A stretch of DNA of 64,000 nucleotides. Origin: Serratia microhaemolytica (lineage in GTDB: Bacteria > Pseudomonadota > Gammaproteobacteria > Enterobacterales > Enterobacteriaceae). Every line of letters begins with the position of its first letter. The first letter of the stretch is position 1. Location: assembly GCF_004011885.1 (NCBI RefSeq), contig NZ_SBEF01000016.1, positions 1 to 64,000 of the forward strand. Direction: 5' to 3'. Of this stretch, positions 5,071-52,198 are shown in pieces. The notes beneath the pieces were generated by a model that saw only the letters and a program-made list of their open reading frames with translations, did not search any database and was not told the DNA's origin. The position numbers and the translations under genes are program-made.

Positions 5071-7725
5071 TTAGCAGGTAAAGCGGAAGGTCTTCGATTG
5101 GCAAGGAGCCAGTGTGCTGAAATCGCCGGGGCTGCTCTGTTGCTTGGTTAGCGGTTGTTCATCCATACCAGTTTCCTGCCAATTGTTGACCGTCCCCTCC
5201 GGTACGCTGAGATGTCCACCTATTGGCTGTTGCTCGGATGGGTTATATACCCGAATGATAAACGCCTCAGCATCCTCAGCTTTCTTTAACACACTCAATA
5301 CTGGGCCATCTTGCGCCATTGACAGCAGACTGAAACTGAGTGGGGTACCGAAGTTAGCCAAATTCAGCTTCATGGCATCAAATGGGATTTTGTTGTAGCA
5401 GCGTACCGGGGTGAGATAAGCGCGAGCTTGTTGCATGACTCCAGCCTGATGCGGATCTCCCGCAAAGCTGAACAGGCTAAAGCGGCAGCGTAATTGACCA
5501 CGCATTTGTGAATCAGGTGTTGGCAGTTTAATGCCAGAGGGGCGACCGGGGCGCAGCAGTAAATCCTCTTTGCCCAGCACTCCCACCGAGCGGAACAGTG
5601 TCAGTGCGAAGGTATCGCGACGTTCGCCGATGATCTCAAATTCACGCAGTCCTTCGGTAAATAGGGCTAGGCCGTGACGTCCATCATGCAGTGCTGCAAA
5701 GTTGATTAACTGCCACACCGGAATGGGTGCCTCTTTCCACTTTTCCTGCTGCCAGTGGGCCATTGCCGGATCATCGACTGGGCGGGTAATGGTGCCAAAC
5801 TGGTTATCGGCCAGTACCGTTTTACTGTTAAATGGCGTTGGGATGAGTACTCGTACACGATGATCATCTGCTTGGTTGTTGAGAACCATACTGATATCGA
5901 TACGGCGGCTGTTGTGCGCCAGCGTGATCTCGCATTGTACGTCCAGATAGCCTTCCGTTTGGTGTTGCGCACGTTGTTGTAGATTGGCTGGCAGTGCCAT
6001 ACGTAATGTCAGCGTCGCACTACTTTGCCAGGCTTCATGGCAGATCTCGCGGGTAACCGCACTTTGAGTGGAGTAGAGTAGCCACTCTTGGCGTGCGGGT
6101 GAATAATCGTATTCATCGCCATCATCTGAACCGTCTTCCAGTTGTAACACCTGTTGGTAGTGGCAACCTGTCAGCTTATCTTCAATATCTAGTGTGCCAT
6201 TGTTATTGATCACAATCCGATAGTATTGGTTTTCCAATAAGTCTGGTGATTGTGCTGCTGGCGGGCTGAGTAGCCCGGGTTGATTGGCGTGAATATGCAG
6301 TGTGCTGTATCCCATCGCGGGCAGGTGCTGCAACAACTGAATGTCATACTCCATAAACGGATCATAATTTCCGTAGTGGACGATTTGACGATCAACCAGC
6401 CCTGGATCAATTTCCCGTTTGGAGCGAATAAAATAGGCTACCGGCTGTCCCTGTTGATCAGTTAAGGCAAACTGGCTGGTTCGAGCACGAATGGTGGTGT
6501 TGATCACTTCTTCACGTTCATAAGGCAATAAGTTGAACAGAGCCAACTTGTCGGCCGCTTGGTCGCTATTATTGCTGTGTTGTACAGGCATGTTGTCTAC
6601 GATCTTACGCAGATAGAAGCGTACTAGGTTTTCTGCCATATCTTCAGCCAGTACGAAACGTGCCATCACTTCCCGGTGTACCTTATCACTACAGCAACAA
6701 CCAATACTGTCATGCGCATGATTTTTTAGGATCTCCTTCCACATTTTTTCCAGTAGACCGTGGTGATATTCAAAACCAAGAGACCACGCGATAGCCGCCA
6801 GTGGTTCAAGGATGTTGACGATTTTATTCTCAATCTCTGCGTTGGCGATCTTGATGTCCATGCGTGTGGAGGAGATGGTGCGGTGAACGCGCATATATTT
6901 GCCATCGTTAAATTCGCCCATCAGGGTGGCCAACCGTTCACGGTGGGCTTCGATGCGTTCAAATACTTGTTCGAAGCGGCTGATCAGAAATTCGCGTTGT
7001 GGGTAAATGTCACGCAGTTTTGCTATTACTTGGAAAATGTTCTGTTGCAGCGGCATCTGGTCATGGCCATTGGGCAGCAGGATATCTTGCGTCAATGAGG
7101 CGTTTTCCAACACTTCGAAATAACTGTCGAGCCGTTTGCGCAATCCAGCTTCATCTTCAGGTAAGTACTTACCAATTGCGTAGCCAAGTGGTAACACCTG
7201 TACTACCACTTCGCTGCCATCGTTGCTCTGCCAGAGAAATTCTGTTTTATCTGTGCCATGGCGTTCTGAGCAGCCACGCCAAAACAAAGCACGGGTGATC
7301 CCAAAACCGTTAAAGATATGCGGTAACTGTGCAGACATGCTAAAAGAGTCCGGTAGGTAACCGATCTTCATCGGTTCACCGAAAGCGAGGCAATCACGTA
7401 GACCGTACATTAAGTTACGCACAATCGATTCGCCCGCGACGATCATCGTGTCGGTTTGGGTATACCAAGGGCCAATAATCAGTTTGCCGGCAGCAACCAG
7501 TGCTTTCACTCGCTGACGATGTTGTGGTTTGATGGCAAAGTAATCTTCAAGTATCGCCGTTTGACCATCGAGCAGATAAAAAGGGTACGCGGTATCGTTT
7601 TCCAGCCGAGTCAGGATCTCTTCCATGTTGTTAATTAGCAGAATACGTGATTCCTCAGTGGTGAAATACCACTCACGATCCCAGTGCATATGCGGTGTGA
7701 TATGAACTCGTGATACAGCTTTCAT
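5071..7725 (-). CDS. mngB: Alpha-mannosidase MngB (GH38)
   Basis: 884 residues. It hydrolyses the 2-O-(6-phospho-alpha-D-mannosyl)-D-glycerate delivered by MngA, giving mannose 6-phosphate and glycerate in the cytoplasm. GH38 features: the metal-binding [10 protein letters not shown] near residues 12-21, the PDSF segment near 125-128 and the NHAHDSIGC block near residue 340; the C-terminal half is the beta-sandwich domain. The ATG at 7725 has AGGAATC upstream at good spacing. It lies 76 nt downstream of mngA on the same strand, so the two form one operon. No defect is visible. Confidence 0.95.
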
Positions 7726-7801: not shown

Positions 7802-9724
7802 TTAAACAATATGGTAGTGCCCCTGTTTCATCGCCCGATGCCGCCATGAGATTAGCACCAGTGTCGAGAGCAGCGTGCCGAACAGTGCTGAGCCAAACCA
7901 GATAGTTGCAGAGAGCACTGCTCCAAGACCGTTGTCATGTAGCAGGAACAGCGAGAAAATGCCTGCGCCAGGGGTAGAAAGCCCTATGCTGAAACTTCCC
8001 ACTATTGCACCCGTTGCCATTGAACCTATCAGGAATGAACCGATCACCCGCACCGGATCTTCAATCGCCATCGGTATTGCCCCTTCTGTTATGCCTGCTA
8101 ATCCCAGCAACCAGGTAGATTTACCGGTTTCAATTTCAAATGGTTGAAATAGCCGTGGTGCCAGTATCGTGGAGAGTGTGACGGTAAATGCTGAAACCAT
8201 TTTTACTGAGGCAAAGATGGCATAAGGGCCATAGACACCGTTGGCCATGGCACCAAGACAGAAGGCATAAGCCGCTTTATTGACCGGGCCACCAAGATCA
8301 AATGAGCACATGAAACCCAGAATGGCACCTAACACGAGGGCATTGGCGCCTGATAGATCATTAAGCCACTGAGTGAGGCCGTTATTGATCCAGGCAACTG
8401 GCTGGCCTATCACAAACAGCATCAAACTACCGGCTACCAAGGTGCCTATGACCGGGTAGAGGTAGAAGGTCATAAAGCCATTGAAATTAGCGCTTAACCG
8501 CAGATGCAACTTAACCCAGCGCATCAGGTAGCCAGCAATCAGTCCGCCAACGACACCACCCAAAAAACCGGAGCCGATCATGTTGGCGGCCAACCCCGCA
8601 GCGAAGCCGGGGCCTAATGCCGGTTTATCGGCCAATGAGTAGGCGGTATAGGCGGCCAGTACTGGCACCATCAAGGTGCCAAGCATTCCACCACCCAGTT
8701 TACGGTACATCCATAGCCAGGAGTTTTGCTGTTCAAACAAATGCTGTAGACCAAAAATCTGTGCTAAAAGTACCGCAACTGCCAACACCGTACCGCCAGC
8801 AACAATCAATGGCACAGCAAATGAGATACCACTGAGTAGAGCCTGTTTGAGTTCGGTTTTGATGCTGTGCTTCGGTGCGGTGTGAGCACTGTGCTGGATA
8901 GGTATGCTACCGCCACCAGCTTGGCCTGCTGCTAGCGCTTGCTCTAGAAGACGTTCAGCATGTTTGATCGGTTCAGCCACTGAAGTTTCAATACGTGGGA
9001 TCGCGCCAAATCTTTCCACTTCTTTGATCGCCACATCAGCGGCGAAAATACACGCCGTCGCATCATTGAGCTGCTGCGCGGTCAAGCGCCCTTCAATACC
9101 ATTTGCACCCTGTTTTTCAACATAAACATTAATGCCCAGTTTACGGCCTGCTTTTTCCAGGTATTCCGCAGCCATGTAAGTGTGCGCAATGCCTGCTGGA
9201 CAAGCGGTGACGCATACCACGGTAGGTTGGGTGTCATCCGGTGTTACCGCAAGCGGGTTGGCCTCTGTCGCGCCACTGCTGAGTAATGCAATCAATTGTT
9301 CCGGTGTGGTCGCTTTCAGCACTGCCGCGCGTGTCTGATCATCAACCAGCGCGGTGGTTAATGCAGTCAGCAACTGCATATGGGTGGATCCAGCCTGATC
9401 CGCAGGGATCGCCAACAGAAAGATCATGTTGACGTTTTCCGGACCATCAATGCCTTGCCACTCCAGTGGAGTTTCCAGTGTGGCGACGGCAAATGCGGCC
9501 TGCTTGACACTCTCACTTTTACCATGTGGCACTGCTAGCCCTTCCCCCAATGCCGTTGGCGCTTGTGCTTCACGGGTAAACACGGCCTCGAGAAAAGCTT
9601 GTTTGTCATGGAGTTTATTTTGTGCCGCCAATTGATTTGCTAAAAAATGAATAGCTTGATCGCGTGTTGCGAAGGTGGTTTGCAGGTTTATCAGGCTGGG
9701 GTGGGTCAGGCTGCTTAGGTTCAT
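7802..9724 (-). CDS. mngA: PTS 2-O-alpha-mannosyl-D-glycerate transporter EIIABC, MngA
   Basis: 640 residues from ATG 9724, chosen because GAGGAT lies just upstream and the protein then begins MNLSSLTH as in the family; a longer frame to 9808 has no ribosome site. Domains in order: EIIA with phosphorylated His in AVPHGK (about residue 65), EIIB with Cys in CVTACPAGIAHTY (about residue 175), and a membrane EIIC (SGISFAVPLIVAGGTVL onward). It imports mannosylglycerate with phosphorylation for MngB. It is divergent from its regulator mngR. The promoter region has a CRP-like site. Confidence 0.95.
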   Translation of the reverse strand: MNLSSLTHPSLINLQTTFATRDQAIHFLANQLAAQNKLHDKQAFLEAVFTREAQAPTALGEGLAVPHGKSESVKQAAFAVATLETPLEWQGIDGPENVNMIFLLAIPADQAGSTHMQLLTALTTALVDDQTRAAVLKATTPEQLIALLSSGATEANPLAVTPDDTQPTVVCVTACPAGIAHTYMAAEYLEKAGRKLGINVYVEKQGANGIEGRLTAQQLNDATACIFAADVAIKEVERFGAIPRIETSVAEPIKHAERLLEQALAAGQAGGGSIPIQHSAHTAPKHSIKTELKQALLSGISFAVPLIVAGGTVLAVAVLLAQIFGLQHLFEQQNSWLWMYRKLGGGMLGTLMVPVLAAYTAYSLADKPALGPGFAAGLAANMIGSGFLGGVVGGLIAGYLMRWVKLHLRLSANFNGFMTFYLYPVIGTLVAGSLMLFVIGQPVAWINNGLTQWLNDLSGANALVLGAILGFMCSFDLGGPVNKAAYAFCLGAMANGVYGPYAIFASVKMVSAFTVTLSTILAPRLFQPFEIETGKSTWLLGLAGITEGAIPMAIEDPVRVIGSFLIGSMATGAIVGSFSIGLSTPGAGIFSLFLLHDNGLGAVLSATIWFGSALFGTLLSTLVLISWRHRAMKQGHYHIV

Positions 9725-46739: not shown

Positions 46740-48188
46740 CTAATCAACCAGCGGGCTCAATGCCTGTAACAGCGGATCGAGATGCTGGTTGACCTGCTGA
46801 TAAACCTGCTGATTAAGTTGGTTATAGAAATGGTGATGTTCCATGTTTGGCAGAAAGCGATCACCGATCCGCACCAGCTTTTCTGCCGCCTGCTCATAAT
46901 CGTTAAACACCTGCATCGCCATACCGGCATTGATTGCACAACCCACCGCTGCTGAACCCTTCATCTCATTACGACAAGCGGGAATACCAAACACATCGGC
47001 AAAGATCTGCATGAACAGATCACTGTTGGCTCCGCCACCAGAGATGATCAGACTCTTGAATGGGGTGTTCAACTCCTTTGCCATCTTATCCATATGGTTC
47101 TTCATGGTGAAGGCGATCCCTTCCAGCACCGAGCGATACATATGCGCACGGGTATGGCGACCATCAAAGCCGATCATCGCACCTTTCCGGAACTCCGCTT
47201 CTGAAGGGGGCGCCCAATCATGCACCGTGATCAGCCCCTCACAACCTGCAGGCACACGCTCGGCTTCCTGGTTGAGTAGCTCTTCGATACTGATACCCGC
47301 ATCATGTGCCTCCGAGACTGCGGCAGCACCAAACTGATCACGAAACCAGCTAATCGTCCACATACCACGCCGAACCCCCATACACTCATAGAGATAACGC
47401 CCGGGGATCGAAGCCTGGAATGGCCAGAAGTGCTGGGCATCTTTTACATTGGCGTGGCCATGCACCATCGCGCCGATATAGGTACCCAACGAGATCAACG
47501 CCACCCCTTCCGACAGCGAACCTGCTCCCAGCGCTTCGACCGCTTTGTCGTGCGCCGTTGCTACAACCGGCATACCGGCAGGAATACCGAGCTGCTGGCC
47601 GACTTGTGCTGTGATATGGCCGAGGATCTCTCCGGGCTTCACCAAATCAAATACTTGATCTCGGGTCAGATTACAGCTTTGCCAAAGCGCGACATCATCA
47701 CTCCAGTCAAGGCGATCATTATCCATCGGCCACCAACCGATATAGTTGGCACAGGTGTCTTTGAATTCGCCAGTCAGACGATGGGTGATGTAACCCGAGG
47801 TTGTGGTGACATATTTCACCCCACGATAGGCATCGATATATTCGTAGGGTTTATTCAGCCGCTTATCCATCCAGTTGATCACTGGATACGCCAACTCACC
47901 ATTCTCTTTCAGCAACACCCGGCAGCAACGCACAATACAGATACCCATTGCCAAAATATCGCGCGCACTGCCTCCACGGTCAGAAAAGCGTTGCATCACC
48001 CGACGAAAGGCGACCTTCAACGCATCCCAGAGATCATCATCCGGATGTTCAGCCAGCAGAGGTGCGGGAATATCCATCTTGCGTAACTGCTGTTTTCCCT
48101 CACAGATAGCGTTGCCATCGAGATCGAAAATCACCACTTTTGCGCTTTGAGTGCCGACATCTACACCCATTAAGTATTTGTTTTTCAT
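46740..48188 (-). CDS. ygcE: FGGY-family carbohydrate kinase YgcE
   Basis: 482 residues with the FGGY kinase fold: N-terminal phosphate-binding YLMGVDVGTQSAKVVIFDLDG, AHDKAVEALGAG near residue 208, and C-terminal ATP site ISGGGANSDLFMQIFADVFG near 386. FGGY kinases phosphorylate pentuloses, hexuloses, glycerol and similar polyols; the YgcE substrate is unknown. It lies 23 nt after yqcE in one minus-strand operon controlled from the yqcE-ygcW intergenic region. I infer that it phosphorylates a product of YgcU or YgcW. Confidence 0.88.
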   Translation of the reverse strand: MKNKYLMGVDVGTQSAKVVIFDLDGNAICEGKQQLRKMDIPAPLLAEHPDDDLWDALKVAFRRVMQRFSDRGGSARDILAMGICIVRCCRVLLKENGELAYPVINWMDKRLNKPYEYIDAYRGVKYVTTTSGYITHRLTGEFKDTCANYIGWWPMDNDRLDWSDDVALWQSCNLTRDQVFDLVKPGEILGHITAQVGQQLGIPAGMPVVATAHDKAVEALGAGSLSEGVALISLGTYIGAMVHGHANVKDAQHFWPFQASIPGRYLYECMGVRRGMWTISWFRDQFGAAAVSEAHDAGISIEELLNQEAERVPAGCEGLITVHDWAPPSEAEFRKGAMIGFDGRHTRAHMYRSVLEGIAFTMKNHMDKMAKELNTPFKSLIISGGGANSDLFMQIFADVFGIPACRNEMKGSAAVGCAINAGMAMQVFNDYEQAAEKLVRIGDRFLPNMEHHHFYNQLNQQVYQQVNQHLDPLLQALSPLVD

Positions 48189-48211: not shown

Positions 48212-49495
48212 TCATCTGTTGGCCGTTTGGGCGACGTGCTCTTGTTTTTCGGCATGTTTAATATTGTTAAATAACAAGAAGGTAAACAGCAGCACCAGAC
48301 CGGTGGCGATCAAACCCATCAGCCACATATTGTGGTAGGCCTGCTCTGCTGGCAGGCTGTCTTGCCAGTGACCGATGATTGGATAGACAAAAACATCAGG
48401 CAGAAAGCCGATCACCGAACAGATACCGACGGTGGTGCCAAGGATATACTTGGGCGTCCTTGCTTCGCCGATACAGGCAAAATAGAGGCCGCGTGAGGCA
48501 TAACAGGTGAAAGCCAACATCAAGATCAAGCCGATACCGACCGCCACGGAGAGTGGCTTCTGATTGGTGATCAACAACACCGTCAGGCTGATCACGCTGA
48601 CCACCGCCAGCAGTTGGATCACCCGTGTTGGTGACTTCAGCCGAGTGTAGGTGGTGATCACCCCGCCGAGCGGGCCGCAAATAGCACGGAATATCTTATT
48701 GATCACAATACCCATATAACTGGCAGCCACCAGCGTCATGCCATACATTTCGGTCAGGTAGCTGGTTGAGTAGCTGAGGATGGCATAGATGGTATAAACG
48801 CCGAGAATAATCATGCTGCAATACCAAGTGGTGCTGATCTTCAGTACCAAAAAGATATCCTTAATATCGAACTTATGCTGCTCTTCATCTTGGTTGCTGG
48901 TGCTGGTAAAGCCATCACTCACCACAAACCAGCACAGCACACCTAACAGGATATAAACCCCGCTGTAGATCAGGATCACCGTCTTAAGACTGTTGGGATC
49001 TTCAGGTGCAAAGCGTGAAAACACCCACATGGTGAACACGGCCAGCGCCATCACCCCCACACCACGTAGCCCTTCCATCCAGCCCATGATTTTACCCTGT
49101 TCACTATGGTCACCGAGCAGTGAAGCGGCTTTGATCGACACCGACCACAGCATCAAAATAGTGGTGATCGCAAACACAACCTGAATCAGCACCATCACCC
49201 AGAATGGTGGATAGGTTGACATTAACACCCCCAATAAGCCGGTGACGATCATGGCACTGCTCATCATCTTTTTGTGTGAGAACTTATCGGCAATCACGCC
49301 ACTCGGGGCATAGAGAACAATTGCAGCAATACCGAACGTACTCATAATAAAACCAATTTCGGTATTGCTAAAGCCCATGAATTTAGCCATTGGAATTTGA
49401 TAAATGTAGCGCAGGTAGGCCAGATCGAAACTTACACCGCCGCTGATACTGATGATTGCCAGCGTCAACCAACGGTTATAACGATGTTTTTCCAT
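48212..49495 (-). CDS. yqcE: MFS transporter YqcE
   Basis: 427 residues with twelve predicted transmembrane helices. The loop after helix 2 reads GVIADKFSHKKMM, the MFS motif A pattern. YISGG-type N-terminus and SFDLAYLRYIYQIPMAKFMGFSN resemble YqcE/YihN-type sugar-phosphate or organic-anion transporters. AAGG lies shortly before ATG 49495. First gene of yqcE-ygcE, transcribed divergently from ygcW. The leader upstream carries a terminator-like hairpin. Substrate unknown. Confidence 0.85.
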   Translation of the reverse strand: MEKHRYNRWLTLAIISISGGVSFDLAYLRYIYQIPMAKFMGFSNTEIGFIMSTFGIAAIVLYAPSGVIADKFSHKKMMSSAMIVTGLLGVLMSTYPPFWVMVLIQVVFAITTILMLWSVSIKAASLLGDHSEQGKIMGWMEGLRGVGVMALAVFTMWVFSRFAPEDPNSLKTVILIYSGVYILLGVLCWFVVSDGFTSTSNQDEEQHKFDIKDIFLVLKISTTWYCSMIILGVYTIYAILSYSTSYLTEMYGMTLVAASYMGIVINKIFRAICGPLGGVITTYTRLKSPTRVIQLLAVVSVISLTVLLITNQKPLSVAVGIGLILMLAFTCYASRGLYFACIGEARTPKYILGTTVGICSVIGFLPDVFVYPIIGHWQDSLPAEQAYHNMWLMGLIATGLVLLFTFLLFNNIKHAEKQEHVAQTANR

Positions 49496-49582: not shown

Positions 49583-49631
49583 AAAAAAAGAGAAAAGTAG
49601 TCTTCCCGCAGTGCAGGAAGTTACTTTTCTC
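49583..49631 (-). terminator. Leader terminator (attenuator) upstream of yqcE
   Basis: On the minus strand GAGAAAAGTA (49631-49622) pairs with TACTTTTCTC (49599-49590); inside, CTTCC/GGAAG adds 5 bp and a small GCA/TGC stem, and a T7 run follows (49589-49583). The hairpin lies in the leader, about 90 nt before the yqcE start, so it must be read through for expression. The 5' arm contains AGTAACT (49625-49619), complementary to AGTTACT (49650-49644) at the start of the leader. The same design occurs on the other side of the region before ygcW. Confidence 0.8.
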
Positions 49632-49643
49632 TTCGTCTCTTTC

Positions 49644-49701
49644 AGTAACTGGGCTATTAAATAGCATAGCGTGATGAAATTCATCTGTGAGAAATGTCAC
49701 A
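49644..49701 (-). promoter_or_regulatory. yqcE-ygcE promoter with consensus CRP site
   Basis: TGTGAGAAATGTCACA at 49686-49701 is a perfect TGTGA-N6-TCACA CRP site. On the minus strand a TTTAAT -10 box lies at 49656-49661, so transcription should start near 49650, with the CRP centre about 42-44 nt upstream. The predicted transcript begins with or just before AGTTACT (49650-49644). Confidence 0.7.
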
Positions 49702-49750
49702 AAACCAAATGCTGCAAAAAAAATAGCGGCTAACAAGTCAGTGATTAAAA

Positions 49751-49801
49751 TGAGACATTCATCACAGAATGATGGATAGCGGCTGTGCTAATTTTTTTCC
49801 C
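49751..49801 (+). promoter_or_regulatory. ygcW operon promoter with CRP site
   Basis: TGAGACATTCATCACA at 49751-49766 matches nine of ten conserved CRP positions. An extended -10 element TGCTAATTT (49786-49794) follows, placing the start near 49801 and the CRP centre at about -42. The arrangement mirrors the yqcE promoter on the other strand. The transcript would begin CCAGTTACT. Confidence 0.65.
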
Positions 49802-49802
49802 C

Positions 49803-49873
49803 AGTTACTAGAGATAATGAGAAAAGTAACTTCTCTGCCGAATGCGGGGAAGATTGCTTTTCTCTTTTTTTTT
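49803..49873 (+). terminator. Leader terminator/antiterminator upstream of ygcW
   Basis: GAGAAAAGTAACTTCTC (49819-49835) pairs with GGGAAGATTGCTTTTCTC (47-64 of the same hundred, 49847-49864) with one bulge, followed by nine T (49865-49873). It is a strong intrinsic terminator only 29 nt before the ygcW ATG at 49902. AGTTACT at 49803-49809 is exactly complementary to AGTAACT at 49825-49831 in the 5' arm, so an alternative stem would break the terminator. The same elements are found, inverted, before yqcE. Confidence 0.8.
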
Positions 49874-49901: not shown

Positions 49902-50687
49902 ATGTCACTGAGCGCGTTAAATGAGTTCTCGTTAGATTTCTTCTCACTGAAAGGCAAAACAGCAATTGTCACCGGCGGCAACAGTGGTCTGGGGCAAGCA
50001 TTTGCTGTGGCGTTGGCGAAAGCGGGCGCTAATTTATTTATCCCCAGTTTTATTGTCGACAAAGGGGAAACCCGCGAGCTGATTGAGCAGCAAGGGGTGA
50101 AAGTGGCGTTTATGCAAGTCGATATCACACAAAAAGGGGCACCGGCAAAAGTGATTGCGCAGTGCCTGGAGCACTTCGGCGCAGTTGATATTCTGGTGAA
50201 TAACGCCGGTATCTGCAAATTGAACAAGGTGCTGGATTTTGGTCGTGAAGATTGGGACCCAATGATCGACATTAACCTGACTGCGGCATTTGAGCTGAGT
50301 TACGAAGCTGCCAAAGTCATGATCCCAAGAAAACAGGGCAAAATAATCAATATCTGCTCACTGTTCTCCTATTTAGGTGGGCAGTGGTCACCGGCATATT
50401 CTGCCACCAAACACGCGCTTGCTGGCTTTACCAAAGCCTATTGCGACGAATTAGGGCAATACAATATTCAGGTTAATGGCATTGCTCCGGGCTATTATGC
50501 GACCGATATCACGGTAGAAACGCGTAAAAATCCAGAAACCAACCAGCGTGTTTTGGATCATATTCCGGCTAACCGTTGGGGTGAAACACAGGATCTGATG
50601 GGAGCAATGGTATTTTTGGCCAGCCGCGCCTCTGATTATGTCAATGGACACCTATTAGTGGTCGATGGTGGTTATTTAGTGCGTTAA
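49902..50687 (+). CDS. ygcW: SDR-family oxidoreductase YgcW
   Basis: 261 residues from ATG 49902 (AAGGGG upstream); the frame extends to 49842 but that start lies inside the terminator hairpin. Short-chain dehydrogenase fold: NAD(P)-binding TAIVTGGNSGLGQAFA near residues 20-35, NNAG near 96, and the catalytic Ser-Tyr-Lys set in ICSLFSYLGGQWSPAYSATKHAL near 148-170. It resembles 2-deoxy-D-gluconate 3-dehydrogenase (KduD) and probably oxidises or reduces a sugar acid or polyol. First gene of ygcW-U-S-R-Q. Confidence 0.9.
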   Translation: MSLSALNEFSLDFFSLKGKTAIVTGGNSGLGQAFAVALAKAGANLFIPSFIVDKGETRELIEQQGVKVAFMQVDITQKGAPAKVIAQCLEHFGAVDILVNNAGICKLNKVLDFGREDWDPMIDINLTAAFELSYEAAKVMIPRKQGKIINICSLFSYLGGQWSPAYSATKHALAGFTKAYCDELGQYNIQVNGIAPGYYATDITVETRKNPETNQRVLDHIPANRWGETQDLMGAMVFLASRASDYVNGHLLVVDGGYLVR

Positions 50688-50743: not shown

Positions 50744-52198
50744 ATGTCTTTGTCGCGTGAAGAGATTGTCGCTAAATTAAAACAGATCGTCGGTGCCGAG
50801 CGCGTGATTACCGATGAGAAAGTATTACAGAAAAATAGCGTAGACCGTTTTCGGAAATATGCCGATATTCACGGTGTATTTACTCAGCCACTGCCAGCCG
50901 CTGTGGTCAAATTAGCCAACAGCGAACAGGTTGCTGCCGTGCTGTCGTTTATGAACCAGCATGGCATTACTGGGGTACCGCGCACCGGTTCTTCCGCTAC
51001 TGAAGGCGGCCTAGAAACGGTGATTGAAAACTCAGTGGTGCTTGATGGTTCCGAGATGAACAACATCATCAAAATCGACATTGAGAACATGCAGGCGACG
51101 GCACAGTGTGGTGTACCGCTGGAAGTGCTGGAAAACCAACTGCGCGCCAAAGGCTACACTACTGGGCACTCGCCACAGTCTAAGCCACTGGCACAAATGG
51201 GCGGCTTGGTGGCAACGCGCAGTATTGGCCAGTTCTCCACCCTGTACGGTGCGATTGAAGACATGGTGGTCGGCTTGGAAGCCGTGTTTCCAAACGGCAC
51301 CATTTCACGGATAAAAAATGTGCCGCGCCGTGCTGCTGGCCCAGATATCCGCCATGTGATCATTGGCAATGAAGGCGCACTCTGCTTCATTACTGAAGTT
51401 ACAGTAAAAATCTTCAAATACATGCCGGAAAATAACCTGTTTTACGGTTACATACTGGAAAATATGCAGACGGGCTTCAACATCCTGCGTGAAGTGATGG
51501 TTGAAGGTTATCGTCCATCAATTGCGCGCCTGTACGATGCCGAAGATGGTTCACAGCACTTTACCCATTTTGCCGACGGCAAATGTGTACTGATCTTTAT
51601 GGCCGAAGGGGCAAAAGCGATCGCCCAAGCGACCGGCGCCGGTATCGAGCAGATTGTGCAGCGCTATCCAGAGTGCCAACAGGTTGACAGCAAACTGATC
51701 GAAACCTGGTTCAACAACCTGAACTGGGGGCCGGACAAAGTTGCTGCCGAGCGTGTGCAGATTATGAAAACTAAAAATATGGGGTTTACTACTGAAGTAT
51801 CTGGTGACTGGAGCACAATCAACGCTATTTACCAGAATGTGATCCAACGCATTAGAACAGAGTTTCCTCATGCAGACGATATCACTATGCTGGGCGGACA
51901 CTCCTCGCACAGCTACATCAACGGCACCAACATGTACTTCGTTTACGATTACAACGTGGTCGACTGCAAGCCGGAAGAGGAGATCGACAAATACCATAAC
52001 CCGCTCAACAAGATCATTGTTGAAGAGACCATTAGGCTAGGGGGATCGATGGTGCACCACCACGGCATCGGCAAGCACCGGGTGCACTGGACCAAAGATG
52101 AGCATGGCAGTGCGTATTACATCCTGAAAGGATTGAAGCAGGTATTTGATCCAAATGGGATTATGAATACCGGAACTATCTATCCGATAGAAGAGTAG
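50744..52198 (+). CDS. ygcU: FAD-linked oxidase YgcU (AGPS/GlcD-like)
   Basis: 484 residues. An N-terminal PCMH-type FAD domain (GVPRTGSSATEGGLE near residue 80, then HSPQSKPLAQMGGLVATRSIGQFSTLYGAIEDMVVG) and a C-terminal FAD-oxidase domain. The motif VHHHGIGKHR at about residues 437-446 is the triple-His motif known from alkyldihydroxyacetonephosphate synthase. The family also contains D-lactate and D-2-hydroxyacid dehydrogenases, some of which pass electrons to an EtfAB pair. ygcRQ downstream encode such a pair, so I infer that YgcU is the ETF electron donor. Substrate unknown. Confidence 0.88.
   Translation: MSLSREEIVAKLKQIVGAERVITDEKVLQKNSVDRFRKYADIHGVFTQPLPAAVVKLANSEQVAAVLSFMNQHGITGVPRTGSSATEGGLETVIENSVVLDGSEMNNIIKIDIENMQATAQCGVPLEVLENQLRAKGYTTGHSPQSKPLAQMGGLVATRSIGQFSTLYGAIEDMVVGLEAVFPNGTISRIKNVPRRAAGPDIRHVIIGNEGALCFITEVTVKIFKYMPENNLFYGYILENMQTGFNILREVMVEGYRPSIARLYDAEDGSQHFTHFADGKCVLIFMAEGAKAIAQATGAGIEQIVQRYPECQQVDSKLIETWFNNLNWGPDKVAAERVQIMKTKNMGFTTEVSGDWSTINAIYQNVIQRIRTEFPHADDITMLGGHSSHSYINGTNMYFVYDYNVVDCKPEEEIDKYHNPLNKIIVEETIRLGGSMVHHHGIGKHRVHWTKDEHGSAYYILKGLKQVFDPNGIMNTGTIYPIEE

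Follow-up and report, generated by a model that had tools for sequence, protein, structure and literature searches.

The DNA analysed here (the window) is a stretch of 64,000 nucleotides of the Serratia microhaemolytica genome (contig NZ_SBEF01000016.1) that contains two divergent operons of a carbohydrate pathway. On the minus strand, the MFS transporter gene yqcE (48212-49495) is followed by the FGGY carbohydrate kinase gene ygcE (46740-48188). On the plus strand, the short-chain dehydrogenase gene ygcW (49902-50687) heads a ygcW-U-S-R-Q run in which ygcU (50744-52198) encodes an FAD-linked oxidase. Assignments of yqcE, ygcE and ygcU are from profile (HMM) matches and comparison with E. coli, while for ygcW the closest NCBIfam model is KduD, with a score below its cut-off. 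By profile matches, MFS transporters, an SDR dehydrogenase, an FAD oxidase and an FGGY kinase make up the cluster. The window proteins YqcE, YgcW and YgcU are 77-86% identical to their E. coli counterparts and YgcR/YgcQ 34-36%. The window ygcE (46740-48188) is only 46% identical to E. coli ygcE, which may reflect replacement of this kinase in one lineage. The yqcE-ygcW spacer contains two divergent promoter-like stretches, and on each side a CRP-like site and an extended -10-like box are followed by a leader with a strong terminator. A preliminary description of this DNA called these 290 nt almost symmetric, which is true of the functional blocks (inverted repeats of 25, 24, 19 and 18 nt with halves that match at 92, 88, 79 and 83%, respectively) and not of the middle.

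Each leader can form two mutually exclusive hairpins. In the ygcW leader (plus strand), an antiterminator 5' strand, AGTTACT (49803-49809), is separated by a loop (49810-49824) with GAG-N5-GAG at 49811-49821, the proposed YgcP contact, from a 3' strand, AGTAACT (49825-49831), that also belongs to the 5' arm of an intrinsic terminator (49819-49873; hairpin at about 49819-49864, then T9). The yqcE leader (minus strand) repeats this layout with AGTTACT at 49644-49650, a loop with GAG-N5-GAG at 49626-49643, a 3' strand common to the terminator 5' arm at 49619-49625, and a terminator hairpin with T7 at 49583-49633. The strands were delimited by pairing and covariation, the loops by alignment and scanner, and the terminators by prediction, folding and covariation; the first loop GAG lies outside the terminator. 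AGTTACT had been described as exactly complementary to AGTAACT in the terminator arm of both leaders, and it is, over 7 bp (49803-49809 on the plus strand; 49650-49644 on the minus strand). The folding check proposed at the same time gave structures far better than shuffled sequences (z -4.05 for ygcW and -5.73 for yqcE, with 1/200 and 0/200 shuffles as good). While the chain is still nascent, the antiterminator is its best fold (-4.2 and -5.0 kcal/mol); once the leader is complete, the terminator is favoured by 16.1 and 15.1 kcal/mol, so the default state would be off and a partner would be needed to hold the antiterminator.

No other place in this genome comes close to the two leaders. The pattern GAGAAAAGTAACTTC has exactly two copies in the 3,263,170-base genome, both in these leaders, and with two mismatches it occurs at one further place; a reversed control pattern has six places at up to two mismatches. 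A covariance model of the element (R1), searched against the whole genome, scores 77.7 and 70.3 bits at the two leaders, followed by 22.5 and 19.4 bits for these two hairpins read on their opposite strands. A rule that combines a stem of at least 4 bp, GAG-N5-GAG and a terminator (the spacing-5 rule) recovers the two leaders and no other place in the 64-kb window; 20 shuffled windows gave no match. An Rfam scan of the leaders gave eight matches, all far below gathering scores, and no known riboswitch class.

The two CRP sites of the preliminary description are borne out by their sequence. The site of the ygcW promoter (49751-49766, plus strand) matches 9/10 consensus bases with its centre 45.5 nt from the RTTACY strand, and that of the yqcE promoter (49686-49701, minus strand) matches 10/10 with its centre 44.5 nt away. 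Extended -10-like boxes were recognized by eye as TGC-TAATTT for ygcW (49786-49794, plus strand) and TGC-TATTTA for yqcE (49658-49666, minus strand), and transcripts would start at about 49800-49802 and 49651-49652, respectively; a sigma-70 consensus scan listed neither box. The earlier placement of a -10 box about 42 nt from the CRP site was loose: this distance spans the CRP centre to the presumed start, and the -10-like box is nearer. When CRP-like sites were searched 37.5-52.5 nt from RTTACY in the 28 divergent loci defined below, the best site was 44.5 or 45.5 nt away in 28/28 ygcW leaders and 42.5-44.5 nt away in 28/28 yqcE leaders, with 8-10 of 10 bases matching. In class II promoters CRP acts at -41.5; if it does so here, the distance places the transcript start a few bases before the hairpin. 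For E. coli, the openly available texts of four studies list ygcW/yqcE in CRP ChIP of an ETEC strain with a TGTGATTACGATCACA site (PMC4287617), list the spacer in genomic SELEX for CRP (PMC3105977), predict a CRP site in it computationally (PMC1794230) and list ygcW/yqcE in constitutive-promoter SELEX as well (PMC3946193). Judged by site sequence and spacing, CRP probably acts on both operons in the Serratia genome too.

GTDB genomes with YgcU were scanned for relatives of this region, which gave 36 loci; 26 have divergent ygcW and yqcE and, with E. coli MG1655 (L005) and the window, make up 28 divergent loci. A pattern search found exactly two elements in each of these, one per leader (28/28 loci, 56 elements). 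One locus (L022), from a metagenome-assembled genome named Planctomycetota, carries E. coli sequence here, which indicates contamination, and adds no distinct element. Two Bacillales loci (L030 and L031) have one element each, on the strand opposite ygcP. The alignment comprises 45 distinct elements, including these two from Bacillales beside ygcP. Its antiterminator stem is paired in 92.1% of 315 cells, and 20 cells are changed on both sides compared to 5.0 in shuffles and 0-6 in slid controls; none of 500 shuffles reached the observed number of paired or changed cells or the observed covariation score. The double changes comprise 13 from G-C to A-U, 6 from U-A to C-G and 1 from A-U to U-A, with the 19 G-C to A-U or U-A to C-G cells all in the six inner pairs, and they give compensatory variants such as GTTACC/GGTAAC and ATTACT/AGTAAT. 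Two other counts are unremarkable, that of stem pairs with double changes (3; reached in 68/500 shuffles) and that of further pair types (4; reached in 499/500), so the covariation amounts to a small number of changes inherited along the tree. In 21/45 elements the outermost pair is formed. Both loop GAGs are invariant (45/45), at a spacing of 5 nt in 33/45 and 4 nt in 12/45. Conservation in relatives, on which the preliminary description had staked its proposal, thus exists, with both elements in 28/28 loci and a covarying stem. The proposed alternation between terminator and antiterminator is likewise supported, because the antiterminator pairing covaries and the terminator covaries too (5/15 predicted pairs).

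Natural variants indicate which parts of the arrangement matter. In one genome (G469, locus L196) the operons are not divergent, and yet one element precedes ygcW and another ygcE, both on one strand and before two separate operons; the switch therefore belongs to the operon and not to the mirror, and the mirror symmetry that the preliminary description pointed out is dispensable. In two further genomes (G446, L194 at about 7980-8060; G529, L195 at about 7500-7570) the inter-twin stretch is missing and one palindromic hairpin lies between ygcW and yqcE, through either a deletion between inverted copies or a collapsed assembly; the ygcW match in G529 is also split into two overlapping pieces. 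Twin terminators can also be nearly identical within a locus and differ between loci, as in L010 (8694-8762 and 9011-9076, 26/28 identical) and L039 (8696-8765 and 9023-9092, 32/32 identical), which is a sign of conversion between arms and concerted evolution of the twin hairpins.

A candidate partner is encoded in the same cluster in E. coli, where ygcP is annotated as a putative anti-terminator. The gene lies within the fetched cluster in 26/26 divergent loci (the window and the short L022 left out). The window genome has a single PF04309 gene, ygcP (213 bits, cut-off 27), on another contig than the cluster and flanked by metH-like and flavodoxin-like genes (read by eye); its product is 70% identical to E. 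coli YgcP. Among solved structures, YgcP matches chains 3kts and 1vkf, both named 'glycerol uptake operon antiterminator'. In a comparison of 30 YgcP with 36 other sequences, 28 common positions are conserved at 90% or more in each group: 25 have the same residue, one is V/I and two differ. At one position (H106) the YgcP set has H where Q is conserved among the GlpP sequences, which is at most a hint on the ligand.

Occurrence of the element follows that of the gene. With strong matches defined as R1 E <=1e-6 and PF04309 >=200 bits, both fall in an identical 35/295 family genomes; because element and ygcP are mostly in one cluster, shared inheritance explains part of this match and, with R1 trained on loci of related species, co-occurrence alone is no proof of contact. 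A sample of 295 genomes across the order has both in the same four genomes, all among the 35. Exceptions are weak. The R1 match in G446 and G529, both among the 35, covers only positions 13-66, a hairpin without its 5' strand. G551 has a weak, decayed-looking ygcW leader match (E 8.5e-4) and no PF04309. R1 has no match in four genomes with a divergent PF04309 protein (G328, G370, G496 and G567; 151-178 bits), in G479, where ygcP is broken, or in five further family genomes with PF04309 below the cut-off; in the order sample, G056 has a weak R1 match (7.8e-4) without PF04309 and five genomes have sub-cut-off PF04309 only. The scanner matched 0/6 enterobacterial loci with divergent PF04309 (L200-L205). 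The decayed-looking leader element of G551 (L199, about 1270-1350) precedes a ygcW that is 84% identical, in a genome without PF04309. Among 5426 E. coli genomes, the leader region was matched in 5018 and ygcP in 5068. In E. coli records H6-H10, the five best-ranked ygcP matches, an IS1 element lies between two gene pieces. Where the preliminary description had left the choice between one RNA-binding regulator or one ligand for both operons, the elements track one GlpP-family antiterminator gene, and the proposal is best amended: the controller is most likely a GlpP/YgcP protein, and the element is therefore of a known kind.

Leaders adjacent to glpP in Bacilli share the hairpin-loop-terminator design but differ in stem sequence, as in GTGA-AGAGACGAAGAGAC-TCAC and TGTGA-CGGAGAAATGGAGAC-TCACA. 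They were sought with a scanner that requires a stem of at least 4 bp, two GAGs in the loop and a 3' strand inside a terminator with a T-run; a stem of at least 5 bp missed most glp leaders, and it was relaxed to 4 with shuffles as a control. The scanner matches 23/41 Bacilli PF04309 loci compared to 2.6 in shuffles, and the other 18/41 have no match. Among the 23, one looks like chance (L176), one is away from glpP (L193) and one is of YgcP type (L089). GAG repeated at a spacing of 5 occurs in 21/41 loci and is the best of 64 trinucleotides, followed by the overlapping AGA (18) and GGA (9) and then TTT (8), with a median of 1; at other spacings from 2 to 9, GAG occurs in 0-3 loci. The loop motif was noticed in the ygcW and yqcE leaders before the Bacilli search, and the trinucleotide and spacing controls limit this bias without removing it. 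The next gene was read by eye in 21 loci, comprising 19 of the 23 and two that the scanner missed and that were added by hand (L084 and L086): 13 are GlpF-like, two GlpD-like, three GlpT-like, one a second GlpP-family gene and two unassigned. HMM checks of next genes gave MIP for L083 and glpT above its cut-off for L181; that of L088, cut by the locus end, matches glycerol-3-phosphate oxidase/dehydrogenase models best, below their cut-offs. In an alignment, the stem register differs among glp leaders. Another PF04309 gene, at L090, may control itself: the element lies in its leader (1361-1440), and the gene that follows it resembles an ABC ATPase (by eye).

With a stem of at least 5 bp, a scan of about 200 kb of Bacillota and related YgcU loci (L030-L038 and L041) returned the L030 and L031 elements and one chance-like match. 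The element in L030 and L031 precedes an ABC-transporter-like operon (by eye) and not ygcW; the ABC-transporter-like genes (about 4.7-8.0 kb in L030 and 5.7-8.1 kb in L031) are divergent from ygcP-ygcW-ygcU-ygcE and may name the substrate class. Enterococcus canis (L038, ygcP-ygcE-ygcU) has two related imperfect elements, one before the gene ahead of ygcP and one before ygcE, with imperfect stems that escape the scanner. Six loci with weak R1 matches in Bacillota genomes were read, and only L061 and L068, beside Enterococcus ygcP, look related; the rest are ordinary-looking hairpins. Three Bacillota ygcW-ygcU-ygcE clusters (L032, L033 and L036) have no ygcP nearby, a downstream RpiR-like gene (by eye) and no element by the scanner, and perhaps use another regulator for the same pathway.

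The closest described system is GlpP of Bacillus subtilis, which acts by antitermination at glpFK, glpD and glpT and belongs to the same family, PF04309 (PMC9604022 and PMC7430163, in their accessible text; the former gives glpD, glpT and glpFK as GlpP-activated promoters). That system likewise combines a leader terminator with added carbon-catabolite control in these accounts. The glpP-adjacent leaders and the ygcW/yqcE leaders have in common a hairpin with a GAG-N5-GAG loop and a 3' strand that is the terminator 5' arm, a motif defined in this analysis. A PF04309 regulator in the genome, predicted leader terminators, an overlapping hairpin with the loop motif and co-occurrence of element and regulator with weak exceptions make the two leaders probable members of the GlpP type. 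Unlike the B. subtilis system, the YgcP case is in another phylum, its putative targets are an uncharacterised carbohydrate pathway read from two divergent leaders, its stem is of GTTACT type, CRP would stand in place of CcpA and the ligand is perhaps not glycerol 3-phosphate. BglG, LicT and SacY with their RAT hairpins also act in the leaders of sugar operons, where the protein holds an antiterminator hairpin overlapping a terminator, and the resemblance is in logic only: these are PRD-type proteins unrelated to the GlpP family and RAT is a different RNA element. LicT antitermination is treated in the accessible text of PMC7430163.

Published work touches this region at a few points. In the accessible text of PMC4681348, RNA-seq and northern analysis of E. 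coli identify a short RNA upstream of yqcE (b2775) on the same strand, with medium-dependent abundance, classed as a previously undetected small RNA. Its strand and place are those of the yqcE leader, and it fits a leader terminated prematurely. A yqcE mutant resists reuterin, and its protein is called a predicted glycerophosphodiester transporter, in the available part of PMC12345186, which is a possible hint at the pathway. Two further mentions are not pertinent in the text available: PMC4448311 mentions ygcW only as the operon that lies downstream of two windows at distances of 3.5 and 4.2 kb, and so does not predict the element, and YgcW in PMC7660256 is seemingly a slip for YbcW. The E. 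coli mentions of ygcP found in openly available text are gene lists. The openly searchable literature, subscription papers being outside its scope, yielded nothing that links YgcP to the ygcW and yqcE leaders. The Rutberg papers of 1991-1998 may describe the GlpP hairpin itself.

Taken together, both leaders are most likely GlpP-type antitermination switches opened by YgcP, a reading to which we assign a probability of about 0.86. It draws on computed results: the two structures, the covariation, the loop conservation, the design common to glpP-adjacent leaders and the co-occurrence with YgcP. In the proposed mechanism, a CRP-activated promoter would start the transcript a few bases before AGTTACT, and by default the strong terminator hairpin would form and transcription would stop after about 70 nt. 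Ligand-charged YgcP would bind the 5' hairpin as it emerges, by way of its conserved GAG...GAG loop, and keep AGTTACT and AGTAACT paired, which would take the 5' arm away from the terminator. RNA polymerase would then read into ygcW-ygcU-ygcS-ygcR-ygcQ and yqcE-ygcE. That the partner is ligand-bound YgcP, and that it acts in the direction of opening, is suggested by analogy with GlpP. By the same analogy, the cluster kinase, dehydrogenase, oxidase and transporters may parallel GlpK, GlpD and GlpF in the glp system, and our guess for the ligand, which for GlpP is glycerol 3-phosphate, is a sugar or sugar acid phosphorylated by the kinase YgcE. CRP and YgcP together would confer glucose repression and specific induction on both operons at once.

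Other explanations account for parts of these observations. The twin hairpins could be plain constitutive terminators back to back, serving as insulators or fixed attenuators with no switch; they are predicted to be strong terminators on their own, and G446 and G529 keep one hairpin though the inter-twin stretch with both 5' strands is gone. A terminator, however, needs neither the upstream strand nor the first loop GAG, both of which are conserved, the former with covariation, and such terminators would not explain why the element matches YgcP presence; we consider this improbable. The published short RNA upstream of yqcE could instead point to terminated leaders that act in trans as small RNAs and are conserved for that reason, but such an RNA is also the expected product of attenuation, and in the rearranged locus L196 each of the two pathway operons still has its own element, so that a role in trans seems quite improbable.

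Leader position and two exclusive structures would also suit a riboswitch, in which a small molecule binds the leader RNA directly. The antiterminator is, however, only about 30 nt long with a 15- to 18-nt loop and is weak alone, no Rfam class matches it, and the element tracks a protein gene and has a design common to GlpP targets, all of which makes direct sensing by the RNA very improbable. Classical attenuation, with translation of a leader peptide controlling the hairpins, is more doubtful still: an ATG or GTG is present in the first 26 nt of 20/45 elements but absent there from 25/45, and is thus not conserved, and there is little room for a ribosome site between the presumed start and the hairpin.

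Antitermination by YgcP would give the orphan E. coli K-12 regulator a target and a mechanism, and the published short RNA upstream of yqcE would gain a reading. It would tie two uncharacterised operons that most E. coli possess to one inducer, in what is apparently an undescribed GlpP-type antitermination regulon in Enterobacterales. More broadly, we see an even chance that a single, undescribed RNA module is recognized by every GlpP-family antiterminator from Bacilli to Enterobacterales, and that YgcP, ygcW and yqcE form a complete E. coli K-12 regulon responsive to a phosphorylated intermediate of an uncharacterised pathway. In this module, GAGA-N4-GAGA would cap a short stem, possibly with stacked G-A pairs that close a four-base turn, and the 3' strand would be the terminator arm. 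The leader design also offers a testable RNA signature by which targets of the GlpP family could be recognized in different phyla.
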